Source: Methanomassiliicoccales archaeon LGM-DZ1 (GTDB lineage: Archaea; Thermoplasmatota; Thermoplasmata; Methanomassiliicoccales; Methanomethylophilaceae). Taken from it: DNA of 64,000 nucleotides. The DNA lies in contig CP115556.1 of the NCBI GenBank assembly GCA_030168595.1, positions 186,001-250,000 on the forward strand, given 5' to 3'. This document shows positions 6,670 to 43,810 of the stretch, in pieces (within the stretch, counting starts at the first letter, position 1; each line of letters begins with the position of its first letter). The position numbers and the translations under genes were made by a program. The notes beneath the pieces are model-generated. The model was given only the letters and a program-made list of their open reading frames with translations. It was not told the origin of the DNA and ran no database searches.

Positions 6670-7572
6670 ATGTCTGCATGGCAAGCGACGATAGAAATGG
6701 CCAAGAGCAGATATGAACTGAACAAGGAACTGGCTCAGATGCTGAAGGGCGGCGTCATCATGGATGTCACTACCCCGGAGCAGGCGAAGATCGCCGAAGA
6801 GGCAGGGGCCGCCGCCGTTATGGCCCTCGAGAGGATCCCTGCGGACATACGCGCCGCCGGCGGGGTTTCCCGCATGAGTGACCCCAAGATGATCAAGGGC
6901 ATCCAGGACGCCGTCTCCATCCCAGTGATGGCCAAATGCCGCATCGGGCACTTCGTCGAGGCGCAGATCCTCGAAGCCCTGGAGATCGACTACATCGATG
7001 AGAGCGAGGTACTCACTCCCGCCGATGACATCTATCACATCGACAAGACCAAGTTCAAGGTCCCGTTCGTCTGCGGCGCCAGGGACCTCGGCGAGGCCCT
7101 CAGGAGGATCTCCGAAGGTGCCAGCATGATCCGCACCAAGGGAGAGCCCGGAACCGGCGATGTCGTGCAGGCCGTCCACCACCTCAGGGCGGTCAACTCC
7201 GAGATCGCCAGGGTGAAGGCGCTCAGGGCCGACGAGATCTATGAGAAGGCCAAGGAGCTCCAGGTTCCAGTCAGCCTGGTGCAGTACGTCCACAGGCACG
7301 GCAAGCTCCCGGTCGTCAACTTCGCCGCCGGAGGCGTCGCCACCCCCGCCGATGCCGCGCTCATGATGCAGCTCGGCGCAGAGGGAGTGTTCGTGGGTTC
7401 GGGCATCTTCAGGTCCGGGAACCCCGCCAAGCGCGCCAAGGCCATCGTCCAGGCAGTCACCAACTACGACGACCCGAAGATCCTGGCAGAGGTCTCCACC
7501 GACCTCGGCGAGGCCATGGTCGGGATAAACGCCGAAGAGATCAAGACCATAATGGCAGAGAGGGGGCAGTGA
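6670..7572 (+). CDS. pdxS: Pyridoxal 5'-phosphate synthase, lyase subunit PdxS
   Basis: A 300-aa TIM-barrel synthase that makes PLP from ribose 5-phosphate, glyceraldehyde 3-phosphate and ammonia supplied by PdxT. Highly conserved stretches are [44 protein letters not shown] with the catalytic lysine, and [23 protein letters not shown] 6670 was chosen over an upstream TTG; ATG 6697 is also possible because family homology begins at KSRYELN. The stop overlaps the pdxT start by 4 bp, so the subunits are translationally coupled. Confidence 0.97.
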
Positions 7573-8165
7573 GAACGCCGACGGCCGCCGTCCTTGCCCT
7601 TCAGGGGGCCTTCATCGAGCATGAGCGCTCCCTGAAGAGGCTGGGCGCCGACGTCTTCGAGATCAGGCAGCGCGTGGATCTGCAGAGGCATTTCGACGCG
7701 CTCGTCATCCCCGGCGGGGAGAGCACCGTCATCGGAAAGCTCCTCCGCGATCTGGGTCTTTATTCCCCGCTCAGGAAGATGATCGAGGATGGGCTTCCCG
7801 TCTTCGGCACCTGCGCGGGGCTCATCGTCCTCGCGAAGGAGGTCGTCGGAGGGGAACCGGTGTTCGGGACCCTGGATGTCAAGGTCAGGCGCAATGCCTA
7901 TGGACGTCAGCTCGGCAGCTTCTACGCAGAGGAGGATTTCGACGGGATCGGGAAGATACCCATGACCTTCATCCGCGCACCCGTAATAGAGTCCGCAGGG
8001 CCGGGAGCCGAGGTCCTCGCGAAGGTCGACGGGCAGATCGTCGCAGCCCGCCAGGGAAGGCAGCTCGGCATCACGTTCCACCCTGAACTGTCGAAGGACC
8101 TCAGAGTGCACCGCTATTTCCTCGAGGAAGTGGCGGGGCTCAGCCTGCGAAGGCAGCGATTCTAA
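7569..8165 (+). CDS. pdxT: Pyridoxal 5'-phosphate synthase, glutaminase subunit PdxT
   Basis: A 198-aa class I glutamine amidotransferase that releases ammonia for PdxS. Visible are LQGAFIEH, the [11 protein letters not shown] glutamine-site loop, the catalytic cysteine in [11 protein letters not shown] and the His-Glu pair in [10 protein letters not shown]. Translation starts at GTG inside the GTGA overlap with the pdxS stop. A GC-rich hairpin terminator follows, so pdxS-pdxT form a two-gene operon. Confidence 0.97.
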
Positions 8166-33756: not shown

Positions 33757-35411
33757 CCAACGTCAATTTCAGCTACAAAGACTTGGAGAAGCTCATCGGG
33801 AAGGAGCTGCCGCAGGACAAGGCGCTCGAGGACCTCCAGATGATCGGATCGGACACGGGCGACACCGTCCCCGGCGATGACGCGATGACCGTGGAGTTCT
33901 TCCCCAACCGGCCGGACCTGTACAGCGTCGAGGGCATCGCGAGGGCCATGAGGCAGTACCTCGGAATGGAGCCCGGGCTGAAGACCTACAAGGTCGAGGA
34001 CTCGGACATAAAGGCGATCGTCACCCCGGAGGTCAGGGAGATCCGTCCCTACTTCATGTGCGCCGCCGTCAAAGGGGTGGAGATCGACGATACCGTCCTC
34101 CGCTCGATGATGGAGCTGCAGGAGAAGCTGCACATCACCGTCGGGAGGAAGAGGACGAAGGTCGCCATCGGGATCCACGATCTCGACAAGGTCGTCCCAC
34201 CGTTCACCTTCTCCGCGGCCGACCCCGATAGGACCTCCTTCGTTCCGCTCGCGAAGACCCAGAAGATGACCATGAGGGAGATCCTCGATAAACACGAGAA
34301 AGGCAGGGCGTACGCCCGCCTGCTCGACGGTTTCGACAGGTACCCGCTCATCACCGATGCCAACGGCAGCGTGCTCAGCTTCCCCCCGATCATCAACGGG
34401 GCGCTCACCGCCGTCACCGTGAACACCCGCAACCTGCTCATCGATGTCACCGGCTTCGATGCATCGGCCGTCGAGGAATGCGTCAACATCGTCGCCACGG
34501 CCCTGGCCGAGAGGGGCGGCACCATCTGCCGTGTCCACATGGAAGGCGCTCCGAAGGAGAGCTACCCCGACCTGGAGCCCAGGAAGATGACAGTGTCCCT
34601 TGCCGAGTGCCGGAAGTTCATCGGAGTGCCGATCTCCCCGGAGGACGCTGTCGCCTCGCTGAGGAGGATGGGGCTGGACGCCGGCTGCGAAGGCGACAGG
34701 CTCACCGCCGTCATCCCCGCCTACAGGATGGACTTCCTGGCGGCCGCCGACGTCTACGAGGACGTGGCCATAGGGTACGGCTTCGGGAACTACGGGAAAC
34801 GGAAGGTCCCGGTGACCCAGACCTTCGGCAGGCTCCTCCCAGAGACTGATTTCTCCGAGAAGCTCAAGGACGTCATGATCGGCCTCGGCTACACCGAGGT
34901 CACCACCCTGACCCTGTCCAACCACCGGGACGAGTTCGAGATCTCCGGCCTCCCCGAGGTCGATTCCGTGACCGTCAAGAACCCGATAACCGAGGACCAC
35001 ACCTGCCTGCGCTCCTATCTCCTGCCCAGCCTCATGAGGATCCTGAGGCACAACAAGCACAGGGACCTCCCGCAGAGGATATTCGAGACCGGGTTCGTCA
35101 TCAGGGATGCGAAGACAGTCCTGCACCTGTGCGCCCTGCAGGCGGCGTCCAAGAGCTCGTTCACCGAGGCCAAGTCCCTCACCGAGGCCATACTGAGGGA
35201 GATCGGAGGGGACTTCTCGCTCGAGCCCTGCTCCTACCCCACTTTCATCGCCGGAAGGGGCGCCTTCATAGTGTACAAGGGGAAGAGGATCGGCATCTTC
35301 GGAGAGATGTCGCCTGCGGTCATCGCCGGATACGAGATGACGCACCCCGTCATCGCCGTGGAGATGGACATCAGCGGGCTGGCCGCCGAGCGCTCCGGGA
35401 GGCTGTTCTGA
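33753..35411 (+). CDS. pheT: Phenylalanine-tRNA ligase beta subunit
   Basis: A 552-aa archaeal/eukaryotic-type PheT (B3/B4, B5 and catalytic-like domains) that supports tRNA-Phe recognition and editing. Visible are VEFFPNRPDLYSVEGIARAMR, KVAIGIHDLDKVVPPFTF, MDFLAAADVYEDVAIGYGFGN and VKNPITEDHTCLRSYLLPSLM. The alpha subunit pheS is not in the window. It is coupled to hmgA (4-bp overlap) and to the peroxiredoxin gene (1-bp overlap). Confidence 0.96.
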   Translation: MTNVNFSYKDLEKLIGKELPQDKALEDLQMIGSDTGDTVPGDDAMTVEFFPNRPDLYSVEGIARAMRQYLGMEPGLKTYKVEDSDIKAIVTPEVREIRPYFMCAAVKGVEIDDTVLRSMMELQEKLHITVGRKRTKVAIGIHDLDKVVPPFTFSAADPDRTSFVPLAKTQKMTMREILDKHEKGRAYARLLDGFDRYPLITDANGSVLSFPPIINGALTAVTVNTRNLLIDVTGFDASAVEECVNIVATALAERGGTICRVHMEGAPKESYPDLEPRKMTVSLAECRKFIGVPISPEDAVASLRRMGLDAGCEGDRLTAVIPAYRMDFLAAADVYEDVAIGYGFGNYGKRKVPVTQTFGRLLPETDFSEKLKDVMIGLGYTEVTTLTLSNHRDEFEISGLPEVDSVTVKNPITEDHTCLRSYLLPSLMRILRHNKHRDLPQRIFETGFVIRDAKTVLHLCALQAASKSSFTEAKSLTEAILREIGGDFSLEPCSYPTFIAGRGAFIVYKGKRIGIFGEMSPAVIAGYEMTHPVIAVEMDISGLAAERSGRLF

Positions 35412-35896
35412 TGGAGAAGGGAGATAAGATGCCCCCGTTCCGCCTGCAGGACGAGAACAGGGAATGGATCGATTCCTCGGCCCTGCTCGGCATCCGTTTC
35501 GTGCTGTTCTTCTATTCCCAGGACGGCACGCCCGGATGCACCAAGGAGGCCCAGGAGTTCACCGACCTCTACCCCAAGTTCCAGCTCAGGAACGTCCCGG
35601 TCATCGGGGTCAGCGGGGATTCTATCGAGTCCCACCGGAAGTTCAAGGACAAGTACGGGCTGAAGGTCAAGCTCCTGAGCGACCCCGACCATAAGTATGC
35701 CGCGGAATGCGGGGCATGGGGCAAGAAGATGCTCTACGGCCGCGAGGTCACCGGCACGATCCGCTCCAGCTACCTCGTCGGCAAGGACGGGACTATAGAG
35801 GAGGCCTGGCGCAACGTTAAGGCCACCGGCCATGCGAAACGCGTCCTCGACGGCACCCTGAAGCATTACGTCGACGACAGCCCGGCAGAATTCTGA
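35411..35896 (+). CDS. bcp: Peroxiredoxin (Bcp/PrxQ type)
   Basis: A 161-aa thiol peroxidase with the active-site loop FYSQDGTPGCTKEAQEF (peroxidatic Cys in TPGCT) and VIGVSGDSIESHRKFKDKYGL. The usual second PrxQ cysteine five residues on is replaced by Glu/Ala, so it may act as a 1-Cys enzyme or use a different resolving thiol (Cys in KYAAECGAWG). It detoxifies peroxides in a strict anaerobe. It is last of the hmgA-pheT-bcp run. Confidence 0.92.
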   Translation: MEKGDKMPPFRLQDENREWIDSSALLGIRFVLFFYSQDGTPGCTKEAQEFTDLYPKFQLRNVPVIGVSGDSIESHRKFKDKYGLKVKLLSDPDHKYAAECGAWGKKMLYGREVTGTIRSSYLVGKDGTIEEAWRNVKATGHAKRVLDGTLKHYVDDSPAEF

Positions 35897-35941: not shown

Positions 35942-36640
35942 TCACGCCCGGTATTCCGAGGAGACGATGTCCTTCAGGTCGTCCCCTTCGTACTGCCAAT
36001 AGATGACGGTCCCGGTGCGCCCGGTATCCGGTTTCCCGAGGGGCAGCGCGCCCGGGACGACGGTCGCGAACTGAGGGTAATGAGCGTATTCCGCTCTGCA
36101 GCGCCTGCCCTGCACGCCGACCTCGATGTCCAGGTCCCTCCCGTCGGCTCCGAAGTCTGCGCAGTTGGCCTCCATCCCCGCCTCCAGCCTGGCTGCCGTT
36201 CTGGGAGCGAGCTCTTTCCCGCGGCGGGTGGCACCCATGAGGACCGCGGCCGCCTCGGTGCGGATGATAATCTTGGCCAGGCAGTCGGCGTATGCCTCGG
36301 GCTCGAACCCGACGAGGCGCTTGTCGTGGACCTCGTAGAGGGTCTCGATCCCGTAGGAGAACAGCTCGCTGCGCAGAGGCCTGAGCTCCGAATGGCCGAA
36401 GATGACGCCCCAGACGCGGGAACCGCCGTTCACCTCGCGGATCCTGGAGAGAATCTCCTCGCTGACGCGGGCTATGCGCGGGCCCTCGGGCCGGTGCTCC
36501 ACCTCGATCCACACCAGGAATCCGTCCGAGCGTGGAGAGTTGAGCTTGTACGCCTGCAGCATCCCGGGCGGGAGGTCCCTCACGCGCCCGTTGGAGCAGC
36601 TGGAGCACGATCCGGACGAGCAGGATTCGCAGCCGCTCAT
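35942..36640 (-). CDS. EtfA-like protein lacking the FAD domain, with N-terminal cysteine cluster
   Basis: A 232-aa protein resembling only the N-terminal domain of electron-transfer flavoprotein alpha (GIETLYEVHDKRL..AVLMGATRRGKELAPRTAARLEAGMEANCADF). The C-terminal FAD-binding domain of normal EtfA (about 320 aa) is absent. The N-terminus carries Cys4, 7, 12 and 15 in a CX2CX4CX2C pattern, fit for a metal or Fe-S site. It overlaps the EtfB-like gene by 4 bp. An unusual electron carrier or a nucleotide-sensing pair is possible. Confidence 0.7.
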   Translation of the reverse strand: MSGCESCSSGSCSSCSNGRVRDLPPGMLQAYKLNSPRSDGFLVWIEVEHRPEGPRIARVSEEILSRIREVNGGSRVWGVIFGHSELRPLRSELFSYGIETLYEVHDKRLVGFEPEAYADCLAKIIIRTEAAAVLMGATRRGKELAPRTAARLEAGMEANCADFGADGRDLDIEVGVQGRRCRAEYAHYPQFATVVPGALPLGKPDTGRTGTVIYWQYEGDDLKDIVSSEYRA

Positions 36641-37263
36641 TCCGATGCCCCCATGTCCTTCAGGACGATCTTCGAGCCCCTCTCGCCGACCGAGAAGGTC
36701 CCGAGACCCAGATCGATCCTACCCAGCCTCTTGACCGCGGAAGGGTCCCCTTCGGGGGCATCCGCCGGAGGATAGGCGCCGGAAAGGACGGAGACCACGG
36801 AGCCTCCGCACGTGCGGCACACGCGGACCTCGTCCCCGTAGTCCTGGGTCATCAGGAACCAGCACCCGTCGCGCTCGATCTTCGAGGTGTAGTAGAACTG
36901 GTCCCTCCCGAGCATCTCGGCGAGCTCCGCCGGCAGCATGCCCGTGCCCGAATCGGACGATGCCTCCCCGGCGATTATCAGAGCATAATCGGGAGCCTCC
37001 CTGCCGATGAAGGCATTCAGGCACCTGGCTGTCGCGTAGACGTCGGCATAGCCGAACGCTTCATCGCAGAGCAGGAACGCATCGTCGGCGCCGGCTGCCA
37101 GGCATCTCCCGAGGGCCCCGGCGGCCGCCTCTGGCCCCATGGACACTGCGGTGACGGTGTCCCCTTCCTCTTTCAGACCTTCCGCCGCGGCGAGGGCGGA
37201 CAATGACCCTGCATCGGGCGATTCTCCCGACGGGCCCGCTTTGATCAGGACGATGAACCTCAT
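36637..37263 (-). CDS. EtfB-like protein
   Basis: A 208-aa protein of the Etf beta fold. MRFIVLIKAGPSG, ALAAAEGLKEEGDTVTAVSMGPEAA and DYALIIAGEASSDSGTGMLPAELAEMLGRDQFYYTSKIE match the AMP-binding domain. It is shorter than normal EtfB (about 260 aa) and lacks the extended arm. Overlaps of 4 bp link it to coaD-DUF84 upstream and the EtfA-like gene downstream. No acyl-CoA dehydrogenase is nearby, so its redox partner is unknown. Confidence 0.75.
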   Translation of the reverse strand: MRFIVLIKAGPSGESPDAGSLSALAAAEGLKEEGDTVTAVSMGPEAAAGALGRCLAAGADDAFLLCDEAFGYADVYATARCLNAFIGREAPDYALIIAGEASSDSGTGMLPAELAEMLGRDQFYYTSKIERDGCWFLMTQDYGDEVRVCRTCGGSVVSVLSGAYPPADAPEGDPSAVKRLGRIDLGLGTFSVGERGSKIVLKDMGASE

Positions 37264-38228
37264 CGATCTTCCTCCGTGTACGCATCATTGAGCCTGGGTA
37301 TCATGGCGGCCATGACGGACTCCTCCGTGAGGGCCTTCCTGTCGATGATGCCGCCGCTCAGGATCCCGACGGCGCCCATCCTCTTCCCGACCTCCGATTG
37401 CCCGAAGACCTTCCCCATGGCGTCCCCCACGGTAGATCCTCCCCTGACGAGGGCGGCCACCTTCGGCGGGTACATGAACCCCGATCCCGTGCCGACGGTG
37501 AACCTCCCGTCCCTGTCGAGGACCGCGCAGTACTGGTAATCGTACAGCCCGTCTTCCATCTCGAAGGCCCCCGCCTCGATGCCGACGGCCAGCTCATGGC
37601 CGCCCAGGGCGTTCCGGGCGCGGTTCATCGCGCCCTCGCGGGCCTGCTTCCCGAAGGGCTGCTCCGGGACGCCCGACGGGACGTCGCAGGCGGTGATCCT
37701 CACATCGCCGAATATCCTCTCCATTACCGAGCGGACGGCCTCCGCCTTGACGCGGTTGAGCGATCCGACGGCGATGTCCTTCACGCCGTGCCTGCCTGTG
37801 CGCCCGTATTCCCCTCTGAGTATGTTCCGGGCGCTTATCTTCGAGCCGTCGTCCGCCATCACGAGCGGGACCACCGAGAGCTCCAGCGGGGGGACCCCGC
37901 GGGAGGCGCGGTCCCTGTTCAGCTCCCTGCCGTTCTCCAGGGTCTCCTCGGAGACGACCAGGACGGAGACCCTGTCCATCTCCTCGCGGGGGCCGTACAT
38001 GTCGTCGATGACGCCGATCCTCCAGGGCTTCTCCTGCTCCGAGAGCAGGTCCTCGAGGGCCCTGCGCCTGAGATAGAGGGGCAGGTGCTCCCCCCTTCCG
38101 GCGGCGGCGAACCTGTCGGAGGTGATGCCGACGAAGACGGAATCCCCCACTTCGAACGCCCGCTCGATGAGGGCGCGGTGGCCGTCATGCAGCACATCGA
38201 ACGTGCCGGCGACCGCAGACTGCTTCAT
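37260..38228 (-). CDS. coaD: Fusion of archaeal phosphopantetheine adenylyltransferase and DUF84 nucleotide phosphatase
   Basis: A 322-aa two-domain protein. Residues 1 to ~150 are a CoaD-type nucleotidyltransferase (AGTFDVLHDGHRALI with the HxGH-like motif, VSEETLENGRELN, SKISARNIL), the penultimate step of CoA synthesis. Residues ~155-322 are a DUF84/YjjX-type inosine/xanthosine triphosphatase (VGSLNRVKAEAVRSVMERIFG, PSGVPEQPFGKQAREGAMNRARNAL, VGIEAGAF). This joins cofactor synthesis with nucleotide-pool cleaning. The start is ATG 38228, inside the 4-bp overlap with the DUF2116 gene. Confidence 0.88.
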   Translation of the reverse strand: MKQSAVAGTFDVLHDGHRALIERAFEVGDSVFVGITSDRFAAAGRGEHLPLYLRRRALEDLLSEQEKPWRIGVIDDMYGPREEMDRVSVLVVSEETLENGRELNRDRASRGVPPLELSVVPLVMADDGSKISARNILRGEYGRTGRHGVKDIAVGSLNRVKAEAVRSVMERIFGDVRITACDVPSGVPEQPFGKQAREGAMNRARNALGGHELAVGIEAGAFEMEDGLYDYQYCAVLDRDGRFTVGTGSGFMYPPKVAALVRGGSTVGDAMGKVFGQSEVGKRMGAVGILSGGIIDRKALTEESVMAAMIPRLNDAYTEEDR

Positions 38229-38434
38229 AATCCGATCACCAGGACCGCCGCGATGACGACCGCCCAGAGGACGGCGATCTCGGCGATGTACCTGTAGAGC
38301 TTCTTCTTCGCGGCCTGCCCGTCGAGGTCCCTGCACTCGTCCGAGCAGTAGGGGCCCTCCCCGATGAACGCCTTGCCGCAGCGCCTGCAGTGCCTGTGCT
38401 GCGGGATCTTCGCGGTATGCTGCTCCTCAGCCGT
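38225..38434 (-). CDS. DUF2116-type zinc-ribbon membrane protein, apparent ACG start
   Basis: A 69-aa protein: AEEQHTAKIPQHRHCRRCGKAF, then GPYCSDECRD (four-Cys zinc ribbon), then one membrane helix (IAEIAVLWAVVIAAVLVIGL). No ATG, GTG or TTG lies in frame between the trmY stop and the conserved part. ACG at 38434-38432 follows the trmY TGA by one base, with AGAAGGGGG seven bases upstream, and gives exactly the family-like N-terminus. The only orthodox start is ATG 38491, deep inside trmY (56-bp overlap). The protein is real; the start is uncertain. Confidence 0.7.
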   Translation of the reverse strand, partial: TAEEQHTAKIPQHRHCRRCGKAFIGEGPYCSDECRDLDGQAAKKKLYRYIAEIAVLWAVVIAAVLVIGL

Positions 38435-38435
38435 C

Positions 38436-39029
38436 TCAGAGCCCCCTTCTGTCCATCTCGTTCTGCACCAGGATGATGCAGTGGTCGGCATGCAGGCTCA
38501 CCGGCCCGAGGCAGATGGTGGACGGCCCCTTCTCCAGGAGCGCCTTCTCCTCGTTCTGCGTCAGGTCGCTGTTATCCCCGAGGACGAATATGGGGTTCTC
38601 GGGGAAGTCGAAGCCCCTCACGTCGCTGCCGTCCTCCTTCAGGTAGACGAAGCTCCCCTTCCCGGACAGCATGTCGATCACATCGTAGAATGACATCTTC
38701 GACACGAAGACGCCGGGGGACGAGACCGCCTCCTTCCCGTCGGGGATCTTCTTCAGCAGGGCGTTCCTGAGAAGGGAGGCCGTGCTCCTCTCGTCGGGGT
38801 TGAGATAGCGCACCAGGGACCCGTTTATCCTCACCGTCTTGGGGGAATCGTCCCCGCCTTCGAAGACGAGGTAGATCTCGGCGTCCTTCCTGATGCCGTG
38901 GCTGAGCATGAACGCCGAGTTCACGCATCTCGCGAGTATGTCGGCGCGCCCGGCCCCTCCGGCGATATCGTCGAGCTTGAACGACCCGTCCGCCAATGCT
39001 TTGTGGCCGGTGATGACGAAATATCTCAT
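38436..39029 (-). CDS. trmY: tRNA (pseudouridine(54)-N1)-methyltransferase TrmY
   Basis: A 197-aa SPOUT methyltransferase that makes N1-methylpseudouridine at position 54 of archaeal tRNAs. Conserved parts are MRYFVITGHKALADGSFKLDDI, LVFEGGDDSPKTVRI and IFVLGDNSDLTQNEEKAL followed by SLHADHCIILVQNEMDRRG, the C-terminal SAM-binding knot. It overlaps srp54 by 4 bp. Confidence 0.94.
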   Translation of the reverse strand: MRYFVITGHKALADGSFKLDDIAGGAGRADILARCVNSAFMLSHGIRKDAEIYLVFEGGDDSPKTVRINGSLVRYLNPDERSTASLLRNALLKKIPDGKEAVSSPGVFVSKMSFYDVIDMLSGKGSFVYLKEDGSDVRGFDFPENPIFVLGDNSDLTQNEEKALLEKGPSTICLGPVSLHADHCIILVQNEMDRRGL

Positions 39030-40405
39030 TTCTCCCCGCCTTCGATGTCTTTGAGCTCCTTAAGAGCATCCGGGTCCATGCCACCCATCTGCTTCGCCAG
39101 CTGCCTGCGCATCTTGCGGTCCTTGGACACGGCGGACATCGTCTTCTTGCTGTTGTTGTACTGCTTCAGGAGGTCCCTGACCTCGGACGCCGGCACTCCT
39201 GCGCCTACGGCGATCCTGTCGATCCTGTTCCCTTTGATGATCGAGGGCTCGTCCTTCTCCCGGGCGGTCATGGAGTCCATGATGATCCTGTACTTGGAGA
39301 GCCTTGACTGGGTGGCCTCGTAGTCGATCTTGTCCGACATCTTGCTCATGCCGGGCAGGAGGCCCATGATCTTCTGCAGGGTGCCCATCTTCCCGAGGGC
39401 CTTCATCTGAGTGTACATGTCGCTGAGGGTGTACTTCCCGGAGGTCATCCTGCGGGCCATCTCCTCGACGTCCACGTCCTCGTCGAAGCTGTCCTTCGCC
39501 ATCTCCACGAGCCCGGCGAGGTCCCCCATGCCGAGGAGGCGGGAGATGAACCTGTCGGCATCGAAGGGCTCCAGGTCCCTGATGTGCTCCCCGGTCCCGA
39601 TGAACACGATCCTGGCCTTGGTGGTGGCCACCGCGGAGAGCGCGCCTCCTCCGCGGGACGTCCCGTCCATCTTGGTGACGATGACCCCGGTGACCCCGAC
39701 GGCCTTGTTGAAGGCGTCCGCCTGGGGGCCGGCCTGCTGTCCGACCTGCGAATCGAGGACGAGTATCCTCTCGTCAGGATTGGTCGCATCCGCGATGTCG
39801 GTGATCTCCTTGATCAGGTCGTCCTCGAGCGCATGACGTCCGGAGGAGTCGATGATCCTGACCTTCTTGTCCCTGAACCTCTCCATCCCCTCGCGGGCGA
39901 TCTTGACGGCGTCCTTCTCCTGATGGGTGGGGTCCCCGAAGACCTCCGCGCCCACCTTGTCGCCGAGCTGCTTGAGCTGGTCGTACGCGGCAGGCCTGTA
40001 CACATCTGCGCCGATGAGGCCGACGGACAGCCCTTTCTTTATGAAGTAGTTCGCGAGCTTCCCGGCCGTGGTGGTCTTACCCTGTCCGTAGAGCCCGACA
40101 AGGAGTATGGTCTGGGGCTTCACCTCGAGGGGCTCGCCGTTCTTCAGCAGGGCCACGAGCTCCTCGTAGATGATGCGGGTCACGTGCTCTTTCGCGGAGC
40201 GGCCGGCGGCCGGCTTCTCGTTGAGGGCGCGCTCGCGGACGTTGCCGGTCAGCCTCAGGACGAGCTGAACATTGACGTCCGCCTGGAGGAGCGCGCGCTG
40301 AAGCTCCTTGCAGACCTCCTTAATGAGATCCTCGTCGACCGTGGATGAACCTTTGATGCGGTCGAGGACGCCTCTGAGGGATTTTCCCAATCCGTCCATT
40401 ACCAT
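39026..40405 (-). CDS. srp54: Signal recognition particle protein SRP54
   Basis: A 459-aa SRP GTPase that binds signal peptides and SRP RNA and docks with FtsY. Domains in order are the N-domain, the G-domain with P-loop GLYGQGKTTTAGKLA, DSSGRHALEDDL (DSSGR rather than the usual DTAGR) and TKMDGTSRGGG, and a Met-rich M-domain with RNA-binding GNRIDRIAVGAGVPASEVRDLLKQY. It heads a six-gene operon. A hairpin pairing ACCACC with GGTGGT lies between the ATG and the TATA box (TATTTTATT, near 40432). Its RNA partner is at 23.8 kb. Confidence 0.96.
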   Translation of the reverse strand: MVMDGLGKSLRGVLDRIKGSSTVDEDLIKEVCKELQRALLQADVNVQLVLRLTGNVRERALNEKPAAGRSAKEHVTRIIYEELVALLKNGEPLEVKPQTILLVGLYGQGKTTTAGKLANYFIKKGLSVGLIGADVYRPAAYDQLKQLGDKVGAEVFGDPTHQEKDAVKIAREGMERFRDKKVRIIDSSGRHALEDDLIKEITDIADATNPDERILVLDSQVGQQAGPQADAFNKAVGVTGVIVTKMDGTSRGGGALSAVATTKARIVFIGTGEHIRDLEPFDADRFISRLLGMGDLAGLVEMAKDSFDEDVDVEEMARRMTSGKYTLSDMYTQMKALGKMGTLQKIMGLLPGMSKMSDKIDYEATQSRLSKYRIIMDSMTAREKDEPSIIKGNRIDRIAVGAGVPASEVRDLLKQYNNSKKTMSAVSKDRKMRRQLAKQMGGMDPDALKELKDIEGGEK

Positions 40406-40890: not shown

Positions 40891-41940
40891 TCACTCGGGT
40901 GCGCGGGACTTGATGGCCTTGACCATCGCGCGGATGTTGTCCGCAGGCGTCCCGATGGGCACTCCGCATCCTGCCGAGATGACATCGAACCCGGCATCCG
41001 CAGAGCGCGTCGCGGCGGCGGCGCAGTCGGCAGGCGTTCCCTTGAACAGGGGGAACGCGCATCCCACGTTGCCGACCAGCACTCCGCGGCCGTTCGCGAT
41101 CTTCACTGCCTCCTCCGGCGGGACCTTCTCCTCCACGGAGATCCCCGTGGCGCCTGTCTGGTACATGTAGGGGATGATCTTCCTCGTGTCCCCGCAGATA
41201 TGCAGGATCGTCATCCCGGGCAGCTCCCCGAGGGCATGGTGCACGTAGGGCATCGACATCTGCTGGAAATCATCGGGCGAGAGGATATCCGTGGACGCCG
41301 ACGGCTCCGACATCTGGACGATGTCCGCGCCGTTCGCGAGCAGCTCCTCGCCGAACTTCCTGCAGTAAGGCTCCACCGCCTTCAGCCATGACTTGGCCCT
41401 GTCGGGATCGGTCCATACCGAGTAGATCAGGTTCTCCGCGTTCAGGATGTGCCCGGTGAGGGTGAACACTCCGGTGTTCCCTCCGACGACCACGTACCTG
41501 TCCCCGTGGGTCTTGTGCATGATCGCCATCGCGTCGATGGCGGTCTTCACCCTGCCGCCCTTGCAGAAGTCCTCCAGGGGCATTATCTCCTGGAGCTTCT
41601 CGGGGTCGTCGAATATCCTCTTCTGGGGGTCGTACGTGTACGGGTGGGAGAGGATCATCGGGGACGATGTCTTCGAGCCCATCCTCATCTTGCACCCAAG
41701 GCGCTCGGCCTCCTCCGTGAGGCAGAACCCCGCCCTGACGGACTCCAGCCCGAAGTAATCGGCCTGGGCGCATCCCAGGGTGGCCATCTTCTGCGGATCG
41801 GAGTGAGCCTCCGGCCACGCCGCCCCGCAGGCGTTCATCATGTCGATCGTATCGCAGGTGGTGAAGATCGCCACCGGCGGCCTGTCAAGAGACTCGCGGT
41901 GCATGGCCGCGAGCACCCTGTCCCTGCAGCTCATGCTCAT
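40891..41940 (-). CDS. Corrinoid:coenzyme M methyltransferase (MtaA/MtbA type, UROD fold)
   Basis: A 349-aa zinc methyltransferase of the uroporphyrinogen decarboxylase superfamily that moves methyl from a corrinoid protein to coenzyme M. The zinc ligands are visible as HICGD (His-X-Cys) and the later Cys in SAGCGVP. ATG 41940 is chosen because GGAGG lies seven bases upstream and it overlaps the corrinoid gene by 4 bp. Coupling to its own corrinoid protein suggests a dedicated methyl route. Methylamine or methanol specificity (MtbA or MtaA) cannot be told by eye. Confidence 0.85.
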   Translation of the reverse strand: MSMSCRDRVLAAMHRESLDRPPVAIFTTCDTIDMMNACGAAWPEAHSDPQKMATLGCAQADYFGLESVRAGFCLTEEAERLGCKMRMGSKTSSPMILSHPYTYDPQKRIFDDPEKLQEIMPLEDFCKGGRVKTAIDAMAIMHKTHGDRYVVVGGNTGVFTLTGHILNAENLIYSVWTDPDRAKSWLKAVEPYCRKFGEELLANGADIVQMSEPSASTDILSPDDFQQMSMPYVHHALGELPGMTILHICGDTRKIIPYMYQTGATGISVEEKVPPEEAVKIANGRGVLVGNVGCAFPLFKGTPADCAAAATRSADAGFDVISAGCGVPIGTPADNIRAMVKAIKSRAPE

Positions 41941-42578
41941 AGACCTTCCTCCTTCAGCCACTTGACGCAATTGGTCGCGTCCGTATCCCTGTGGTCCGCG
42001 CCGATCTCCTTGGCGAACCCGTCCGTCGTCGGGGGCCCGCCGATGGTCACAGTGCACTTCTTCCGGTATCCGTTCTCCTCGAGCGCCTTCAGAGCGGCGG
42101 CCATGCTGTCCATGGTCGGGGTCATGAGCGTGCTCAGGCAGACCACGCCGATCCCCTGCTCCTTGGCGGTGGAGGCGATGACCTTGGGATCGACGTCCTT
42201 TCCGAGGTCGTTGACGATGTAGCCCGACGCGGTCAGCATCGTCTTCACGATGTTCTTGCCGATATCATGGACATCTCCCATAACCACGGCGGTCTCGGCC
42301 TTCTTCGCGTCGGCGAGATCGGCCTTGGGTATAGCGGGCAGCAGGACATCCAGCCCGTTGTACATGGCATGCGCGGCGACGAGCACCTGAGGGAGGTACA
42401 TCTCCCTTGCGGCGTAATGCTCGCCGATTCTGTCCATTCCGACCACGAGGCCCTCGTTGATGGCCTCTACAGAATCCATTCCGGAGTCAAGAGCCTTCTT
42501 CGCGACCTCCGTCGCGACTTCGGGCTTACAGGACTCCACTGCATCCGCGAGGGCATTCAGAAGATCCTTCTTGTCCAT
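41937..42578 (-). CDS. Methyltransferase corrinoid protein (MtbC/MttC/MtmC-like)
   Basis: A 213-aa B12-binding protein. An N-terminal helical cap (LLNALADAVESCKPEVATEVAKKALDSG) is followed by the Rossmann domain with GDVHDIGKN (His104 as lower axial cobalt ligand), CLSTLMTPTMDSM and VTIGGPPTTDGFAKEIGAD. It carries methyl between a substrate-specific methyltransferase and the UROD-type protein encoded next. No MtmB/MtbB/MttB/MtaB gene is adjacent, so the methyl donor is unknown. AGGAGGA eight bases upstream gives strong initiation. Confidence 0.92.
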   Translation of the reverse strand: MDKKDLLNALADAVESCKPEVATEVAKKALDSGMDSVEAINEGLVVGMDRIGEHYAAREMYLPQVLVAAHAMYNGLDVLLPAIPKADLADAKKAETAVVMGDVHDIGKNIVKTMLTASGYIVNDLGKDVDPKVIASTAKEQGIGVVCLSTLMTPTMDSMAAALKALEENGYRKKCTVTIGGPPTTDGFAKEIGADHRDTDATNCVKWLKEEGL

Positions 42579-42754: not shown

Positions 42755-43810
42755 TCAGAGGTACCCGGACTTCTGGAGGATCATGAGGTCCTCGGTCGAG
42801 AGCTTCTCTCCGGCCTTGAACTTCTCGAAGATCTCCTCAGCCTTCTTCTTGGTCTCGTAGTCGGTGCGCTTCTTCTTGGCGATGTTCTTCTTGTTCTTGA
42901 TGCCGTCGGCGTCCTTTCCGACCGCATGGACCGACTTGATGGACTCGATATGCAGGCGGTGCTCCTCATCGGCCTTCTGCTTGCACTCGACGAACTTCGC
43001 CTGAGCGGCATCGGCCTCCTTGCGGATGGCATCGGCGCGCTGGTAGAGCGAGAGCATGTTGTCGTGGGCCTTCTGGGCCTCCTCGGCGTTGATCGAGACC
43101 TGCTTGTGGGCCTCCTCGGCCTTGGCCTTGGCGTCCCTGAGCTCCTGGACGAGCCCGCGGATCTCCTCATCGCCTTCCTCGACCTTCTCGCGCTCGCCGA
43201 TCTGCTTGGCAAGCTCCTGGATCTGCTTGACGAGGGCCTTCTCCTTGTCAGCGCCCATGGGCATGGTCTGCTGCTGCATCTCCATGCGGTCGAGGCGGGC
43301 CTTCATCTGGCCGAGGCTCTCCTCTTCGCCTTCCTTCTTCTTCTCGGGGCGGATCTCGTTGATCTTGGCCCTGATCTCGGACACCTTCTTGTTCCACTCG
43401 TCCCTGACTGCTTTGGACTCGCGGACCTTCTGGTTGAAGCCGTCGCGGACCTCGCGGGATTTGCCTGCCTCCTCGACGAGCTCCCTGACCTGGGCGTTGA
43501 GGGCGTCCCTCTTGGACTTCCACTCCTTGGTCTGGGCGTTCAGCTCGTCCCTCTTCTGCCTGTGGACCTCGGCCTCGTTGTTGAGGATGGTCTTCTGGGC
43601 CTCGAGGTCGGCCAGCTTGGCCTTCTCCTCGGGGGTCGGCTCCGCCTCTTCAGCGGAAGGGACCTGCTCGCTCTCGGCCTGCTGCTCTTCCTGGGCGTTC
43701 TCCGGCTCCTGCTCGCTCTCGGCCTGCTCGGCGGCCATCTTTTCGGTGTCTTCAACCTGGACTTTTTCCTCGTCAGTCATAAAAATATCACTCACGTTCG
43801 TTTTGGCCAT
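42755..43810 (-). CDS. Archaeal coiled-coil protein (COG1340-like)
   Basis: A 351-aa protein. The first 60 residues are an acidic, Gln/Glu-rich disordered segment. A long coiled coil rich in Lys, Glu, Arg and Asn follows (LADLEAQKTILNNEAEVHRQKRDELNAQ, AQVRELVEEAGKSREVRDGFNQKVRESKAVRDEWNKKV), and a small C-terminal domain ends GEKLSTEDLMILQKSGYL. Such proteins are conserved in archaea and suspected to act in chromosome or cell structure. No enzyme motif is present. Confidence 0.8.
   Translation of the reverse strand: MAKTNVSDIFMTDEEKVQVEDTEKMAAEQAESEQEPENAQEEQQAESEQVPSAEEAEPTPEEKAKLADLEAQKTILNNEAEVHRQKRDELNAQTKEWKSKRDALNAQVRELVEEAGKSREVRDGFNQKVRESKAVRDEWNKKVSEIRAKINEIRPEKKKEGEEESLGQMKARLDRMEMQQQTMPMGADKEKALVKQIQELAKQIGEREKVEEGDEEIRGLVQELRDAKAKAEEAHKQVSINAEEAQKAHDNMLSLYQRADAIRKEADAAQAKFVECKQKADEEHRLHIESIKSVHAVGKDADGIKNKKNIAKKKRTDYETKKKAEEIFEKFKAGEKLSTEDLMILQKSGYL

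Follow-up and report, generated by a model that had tools for sequence, protein, structure and literature searches.

Introduction

Electron transfer flavoproteins (Etf) are defined by their flavins. In a gut-type methanogen, a Methanomethylophilus (order Methanomassiliicoccales) closely related to strain 1R26, the 64,000-nucleotide stretch of DNA that was analyzed, hereafter the window, contains a pair of Etf-like genes whose alpha product has no FAD domain. An initial annotation, made from the sequence alone, had pointed to this missing domain, to four N-terminal cysteines of alpha read as a cluster, to the lack of a dehydrogenase nearby and to an operon shared with srp54, trmY and coaD, and had proposed that the pair may do something other than classical Etf work. 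What, then, is an Etf pair kept for without its FAD domain?

The gene pair and its operon

The alpha gene (35942..36640, minus strand) encodes 232 amino acids and the beta gene (36637..37263, minus strand) encodes 208. Both open reading frames are intact, and each product has PF01012 as its sole Pfam match (E=5e-24 for alpha, at residues 47-215, and E=1.5e-21 for beta). PF00766, the FAD domain, is missing from alpha, which ends where that domain starts in full-length homologues, confirming the first observation of the initial annotation. The beta protein, recognized from PF01012, alignment and an AlphaFold2 model, is reduced as well, and in alignment lacks the protrusion, the beta-FAD motif and the C-terminal arm of EtfB. 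At its N-terminus alpha reads MSGCESCSSGSCSSCS, which does contain the reported CX2CX4CX2C pattern (C4, C7, C12 and C15) within a Cys/Gly/Ser-rich arm (residues 1-22; 36575..36640, minus strand). The arm is followed by the motif LPPGML (residues 23-28; 36557..36574, minus strand), a possible short docking motif.

The pair belongs to an operon on the minus strand whose first gene is srp54 (39026..40405), an open reading frame with a conserved position in relatives, for which we keep the name given in the initial annotation. It is followed by trmY (38436..39029; PF04013, NF002560), a DUF2116 treble-clef protein gene (38225..38491; PF09889) and, directly upstream of beta, a coaD/NTPase fusion (37260..38231; identified by Pfam and NCBIfam). 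Consecutive genes overlap by 4 bp at both the alpha/beta and the beta/coaD-NTPase junctions, indicating that the operon is tightly coupled. Beyond srp54, the window encodes a URO-D family (MtaA-like) methyltransferase and then a B12-binding corrinoid protein (40891-42578), probably a methyl-coenzyme M pathway module, and a coiled-coil DUF7121 protein (42755-43810; PF23435) that adjoins srp54 in many relatives (cluster c9).

The 3' limit of alpha is set by a convergent peroxiredoxin gene (35411..35896, plus strand; PF00578), the same neighbor as in relatives. Only 45 bp separate the alpha stop from the end of this gene at 35896, so a frame-shifted FAD domain cannot follow alpha. Furthermore, a profile search found no PF00766 match in the complete, single-contig genome (1,768,094 bp, 99.7% complete), whereas a control search with the same profile gave matches in 10 of 14 reference genomes. 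A frameshift at 35942 hiding the domain is therefore excluded, and the search of the genome for a separate FAD-domain protein came back empty as far as PF00766 can detect one. Within the sensitivity of a profile search, it is very improbable that the pair obtains a FAD domain in trans or through a frameshift.

Full-length relatives and the missing dehydrogenase

We compared 147 genomes from the order. About half lack alpha altogether; 74 encode a homologue of it, and the FAD domain is found in 49, nine of them from the window's own genus. The initial annotation had named full-length orthologues in close relatives as a finding that would speak against its observation. Such orthologues exist in these nine congeners, and the window pair is therefore a reduced Etf and not a member of a primitive FAD-free family. 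The observation itself is no artefact, given that at least six lineages have undergone such a reduction (see below).

The intact operon reads srp54-trmY-(DUF2116)-coaD-X-etfB-etfA. The product of X is an FAD-linked oxidase of 515 aa (PF01565 and PF02913) that matches LctD (7QH2_C) of Ldh-EtfAB and D-lactate dehydrogenases. X is absent from the window and the other reduced loci, and in the window coaD directly abuts etfB, bearing out the earlier remark that no dehydrogenase is nearby. Of the 49 intact loci among the 74 genomes, 48 have X next to etfB and the other one is at the edge of a contig; of the 25 reduced loci, none has X there. The distance between coaD and beta is correspondingly about 1.5 kb in full-length loci versus a 4-bp overlap in reduced pairs of separate lineages. 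Genomes generally contain three PF02913 genes when the locus is intact versus two when it is reduced, although some incomplete genomes deviate; the two that remain in the window genome lie away from the Etf locus.

The full-length EtfAB of Methanomethylophilaceae (for example G036 and L060) are orthologues of the window pair, sharing its operon, the arm, LPPGML and 56-59% identity over the common part of alpha. Unlike the window pair, they have the FAD domain, the EtfB arm, the beta-FAD motif and the adjacent LctD-like dehydrogenase. In another full-length locus (L059 of G037, 7835-7850) there is no ATG, GTG or TTG ahead of the Cys tail, and the alpha frame opens directly after the beta stop with ACG GGT TGC, reflecting either a non-canonical start or an assembly error.

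In profile comparisons, the best match of beta is a bifurcating EtfB and that of alpha is LctC. By sequence, the intact locus resembles the bifurcating Ldh-EtfAB complex, its dehydrogenase gene being lactate-dehydrogenase-like and FAD-linked. The gene set of Ldh-EtfAB (LctBCD) of Acetobacterium woodii (7QH2), dehydrogenase-etfB-etfA, is the ancestral set seen in the window's relatives, and Ldh-EtfAB, CarCDE (6FAH) and Bcd-EtfAB (5OL2) all have the same domain I plus domain III fold as the window pair. As srp54, trmY and coaD also house these complete Ldh-EtfAB genes, the operon is uninformative on a new role; we therefore reject guilt by operon, and with it the earlier use of these neighbors as a clue.

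Loss of flavin and NAD sites

Mutagenesis has defined DGDTAQVGP, RXFXG and EtfA R205 as beta-FAD and NAD binding elements (PMC9232219), and we used the functional maps of Ldh-EtfAB and Bcd-EtfAB (PMC9232219, PMC5691135) for comparison. Relative to Ldh-EtfAB, CarCDE and Bcd-EtfAB, the window pair lacks the dehydrogenase, domain II and the EtfB arm, which together form the alpha-FAD shuttle, and the EtfB protrusion with VKQVPD. Relative to Etf of the Ldh-EtfAB type, it also lacks an intact beta-FAD or NAD motif: in the window beta, DGDTAQVGP has become SDSGTGMLP and RXFXG has become EAFGY. Also absent from the window alpha is the EtfA segment RPAFGGN. From sequence context, we equate the arginine of this segment with R205 of LctC, the contact to N5 of the beta-FAD.

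These changes extend to the other truncated proteins. RPxFGG is present in 44 of 49 intact alphas and TADC in 47 of 49, versus none of 21 truncated alphas for either. In betas, VKQVP is found in 48 of 49 intact versus 0 of 10 truncated proteins, DGDTxQ in 36 of 49 versus 0 of 10, and RxFxG in 31 of 49 versus 3 of 10. The 49 include G033, which has a degenerate FAD domain, and the strict patterns miss some intact but diverged betas. All ten truncated betas end shortly past the GSxT anchor, without the C-terminal EtfB arm. Every flavin and NAD element that can be tested by sequence has been lost, repeatedly and together with the dehydrogenase. These data support the view that the window pair cannot do classical Etf work, because the FAD domain, the dehydrogenase gene and the beta-FAD and NAD motifs are gone. 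The non-classical role originally proposed is upheld to this extent, as that of a reduced protein.

Repeated reduction across the order

In a maximum-likelihood tree of 73 sequences of alpha domain I, alphas group by genus, and reduced forms, which sit on long branches, appear in g1, g9, g14, g11 plus g2, and g10, with G033 (genus g6) counted as reduced by its degenerate FAD domain. Parsimony requires seven changes. Supported branches give six pairs, and in each of them the dehydrogenase was lost along with the FAD domain (sign test p=0.031). A single origin of the truncated forms is rejected (one-clade tree, p-AU 5e-5), as is their horizontal spread, given that the alpha tree follows the genera; within the window's genus, one loss and several are not distinguished (p-AU 0.505). 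On this evidence, the stripping-down arose independently at least six times.

The genomes compared are mostly draft or metagenome assemblies. Four alphas have a degenerate C-terminal half that is negative for PF00766 (L043 of G024, L044 of G104, L045 of G103 and L080 of G033), apparent intermediates in the loss of the FAD domain. At the other end, a truncated alpha is the sole ETF-domain gene in ten genomes. Eight of these belong to genus g9, in which alpha has moved to another locus, where (L053, L054, L055 and L058) it stands alone, tail to tail with a gene cluster. This cluster encodes an FMN reductase, a conserved protein with no Pfam match, a NIL-ferredoxin and the homocysteine biosynthesis enzyme HcyBio (PF01837); its relation to alpha is one of position, and no operon is shared. 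In Methanomethylophilus sp. 1R26 (L031), whose alpha is 98% identical to that of the window, the beta gene (about 7378-8003) is broken by an extra G in a G-run near 7672, and the alpha gene is intact. In this draft assembly, the frameshift may have been introduced in sequencing, or beta may have been lost recently here, as it was in the alpha-only genomes.

What the reduced proteins retain

The Cys arm is kept in all 21 truncated alphas, each with at least three cysteines at variable spacing. Among relatives in general there are 2-7 cysteines within the first 45 residues, mostly 3-4. The CX2CX4CX2C pattern of the window is therefore a local version of a variable Cys/Gly/Ser arm, judging from these alignments, and the earlier reading of it as a fixed cluster signature does not hold. 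LPPGM(L) is present in every one of the 21 truncated alphas and in 44 of the 49 that are full-length.

AlphaFold2 models were made as single chains, alpha and beta separately. Alpha has a mean pLDDT of 86 and its Foldseek match is domain I of EtfA, with the arm predicted to be disordered (pLDDT <50 at residues 1-5 and 7-18) and the LPPGML stretch at low-to-moderate pLDDT. Beta has a pLDDT of 93 and TM scores of 0.84-0.85 to EtfB of 5OL2 and 7QH2. As the best Foldseek matches are EtfA and EtfB chains, the fold is predicted to be retained in both subunits.

The remnant is also under purifying selection, suggesting that the pair still does something. Values of dN/dS are 0.02-0.25 for truncated alphas (0.15 for window versus 1R26), 0.13-0.25 for truncated betas and 0.05-0.11 for intact alphas, over pairs that span up to 0.7 synonymous differences per site. 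In genus g14, no part of alpha is as well conserved as the arm, which has a pN of 0-0.013 versus 0.077-0.12 elsewhere in the protein (Fisher p 0.002-0.045); in the other genera, the tail is no more conserved than the rest.

The arm appears to stand where EtfA of the Ldh-EtfAB type has its ferredoxin (Fd) domain, the cysteines of which are essential in Ldh-EtfAB (PMC9232219). Profile alignment places it at cysteines 41, 44 and 47 of LctC, which hold a [4Fe-4S] cluster, although the alignment is weak in that stretch. Two alphas from other families (G001 and G008) have a 2x[4Fe-4S] Fd domain at the N-terminus, and the arm may descend from such a domain, as also found in LctC and CarE. In the window, however, the arm does not look like a ferredoxin domain itself, and alpha has no match to the Fer4 family in Pfam. 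With so weak an alignment and such variable Cys spacing, Fe-S, Zn and thiol chemistry are all possible for the arm. Among other proteins of the genus, searches for similar Cys tails gave weak matches (E >= 0.015), one of which, in the window genome, adjoins a zinc-ribbon-like protein.

Discussion

The losses, their linkage and repetition, purifying selection, retention of the arm and the survival of alpha without beta in ten genomes are all demonstrated by sequence comparison. We consider it on balance probable that a flavin-free Etf base has been kept for a second function of the Cys-rich arm and domain I of alpha. The ancestor would have been a bifurcating or confurcating complex of the Ldh-EtfAB type, with an alpha that also served a second role needing no flavin chemistry. 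In this role the arm would carry a reactive thiol, a metal or an Fe-S cluster, and LPPGML or the domain I surface would dock it to a putative partner. Dispensing with the lactate-oxidizing complex would have cost the pair its dehydrogenase, its beta-FAD/NAD site and the shuttle domain for FAD, built from EtfA domain II with the EtfB arm. Only the second role would have been retained, leaving the Etf base (domain I and the domain III core), the flexible arm and LPPGML. Beta would be a structural partner of alpha, kept in some lineages and dropped in others. Candidate jobs for the arm and domain I are metal, Fe-S or sulfur handling, or scaffolding. The broader proposal that EtfA of Methanomethylophilaceae is a two-job protein, of which at least six lineages kept only the flavin-independent job, ten genomes as a stand-alone alpha, is plausible but more tentative. 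Several observations count against a second job: the arm has no constant number of cysteines and grows by GSC repeats, which a fixed Fe-S site would not do; outside g14 the tail is conserved no better than the remainder of alpha; the long branches of reduced forms would also be expected if function wanes; about half of the order's genomes lack alpha, so its role is dispensable; and no partner gene shared by all forms was found, one alpha-only clade being at a different locus.

The main rival is slow decay, in which loss of the dehydrogenase left Etf genes without function that eroded stepwise, from complex to pair to alpha alone to nothing, with the remaining reading frames persisting by chance or to keep the operon intact. 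Decay would account for the graded series of intact loci, degenerate FAD domains (G033, G103, G104 and G024), truncated pairs, alpha alone and absence, for the long branches and for the broken 1R26 beta. However, that insertion, a lone G added to a G-run, comes from a draft assembly and may be erroneous. Against decay stand the low dN/dS over well-diverged pairs, frames that are unbroken in five g14 species and in eight from the alpha-only clade, an arm retained in 21 of 21 and a relocated alpha that was nevertheless kept. With selection and stand-alone survival against it, we regard decay as rather unlikely. Alternatively, the arm could hold an Fe-S cluster as a collapsed Fd domain, making the pair a flavin-free carrier of single electrons that links ferredoxin to a new acceptor. 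The Fd domains of G001 and G008, the alignment of the arm at the cluster cysteines of LctC/CarE and the need of Ldh-EtfAB for its Fd-domain cysteines are in keeping with such a carrier, but weak alignment, unconserved spacing and the missing Fer4 match make it improbable.

In ordinary Etf, AMP is bound by the beta part of the ETF base. A reduced pair of this HUP-like fold might bind AMP, ATP or another adenine nucleotide and regulate its neighbors, for instance CoA synthesis, with no redox role. The predicted retention of the fold and the operon shared with coaD agree with a sensor, yet the phosphate-binding loop of beta has changed from AIDGDTAQVP to SSDSGTGMLP in the window and is shortened in g14, ten genomes have no beta at all and the same operon houses the complete Ldh-EtfAB, leaving a sensor distinctly improbable as well.

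The nearest architectural precedent for a FAD-less alpha is Ta0212 of Thermoplasma acidophilum (3FET, "EtfA-related protein"), an EtfA-like domain without a FAD domain from the same class, Thermoplasmata. It matches alpha in Foldseek with TM scores of 0.70-0.71 (normalized to 3FET), but is just 166 aa long and about 14-16% identical (profile E=0.014). The literature searched contained no functional paper on Ta0212 and no description of the reduced Methanomethylophilaceae genes. Among 300 sampled genomes of the class, EtfA matches outside the window's family are mostly in open frames of more than 300 aa. Bar a few shorter matches (G162 and G254), a FAD-less alpha with a Cys arm thus seems restricted to Methanomethylophilaceae.

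Taken together, the repeated loss points to a hidden second job of these Etf proteins. If the second-job reading is true, these archaea would have an Etf pseudoenzyme, a conserved Etf base stripped of its flavin and NAD sites repeatedly and in parallel while purifying selection persisted, and their bifurcating Etf would have a second function. The natural series from intact complex through degenerate form, pair and alpha alone to absence means that comparison between species can test the question. Meanwhile, those building metabolic models of gut methanogens should be wary of treating the products of these genes as electron transfer flavoproteins.
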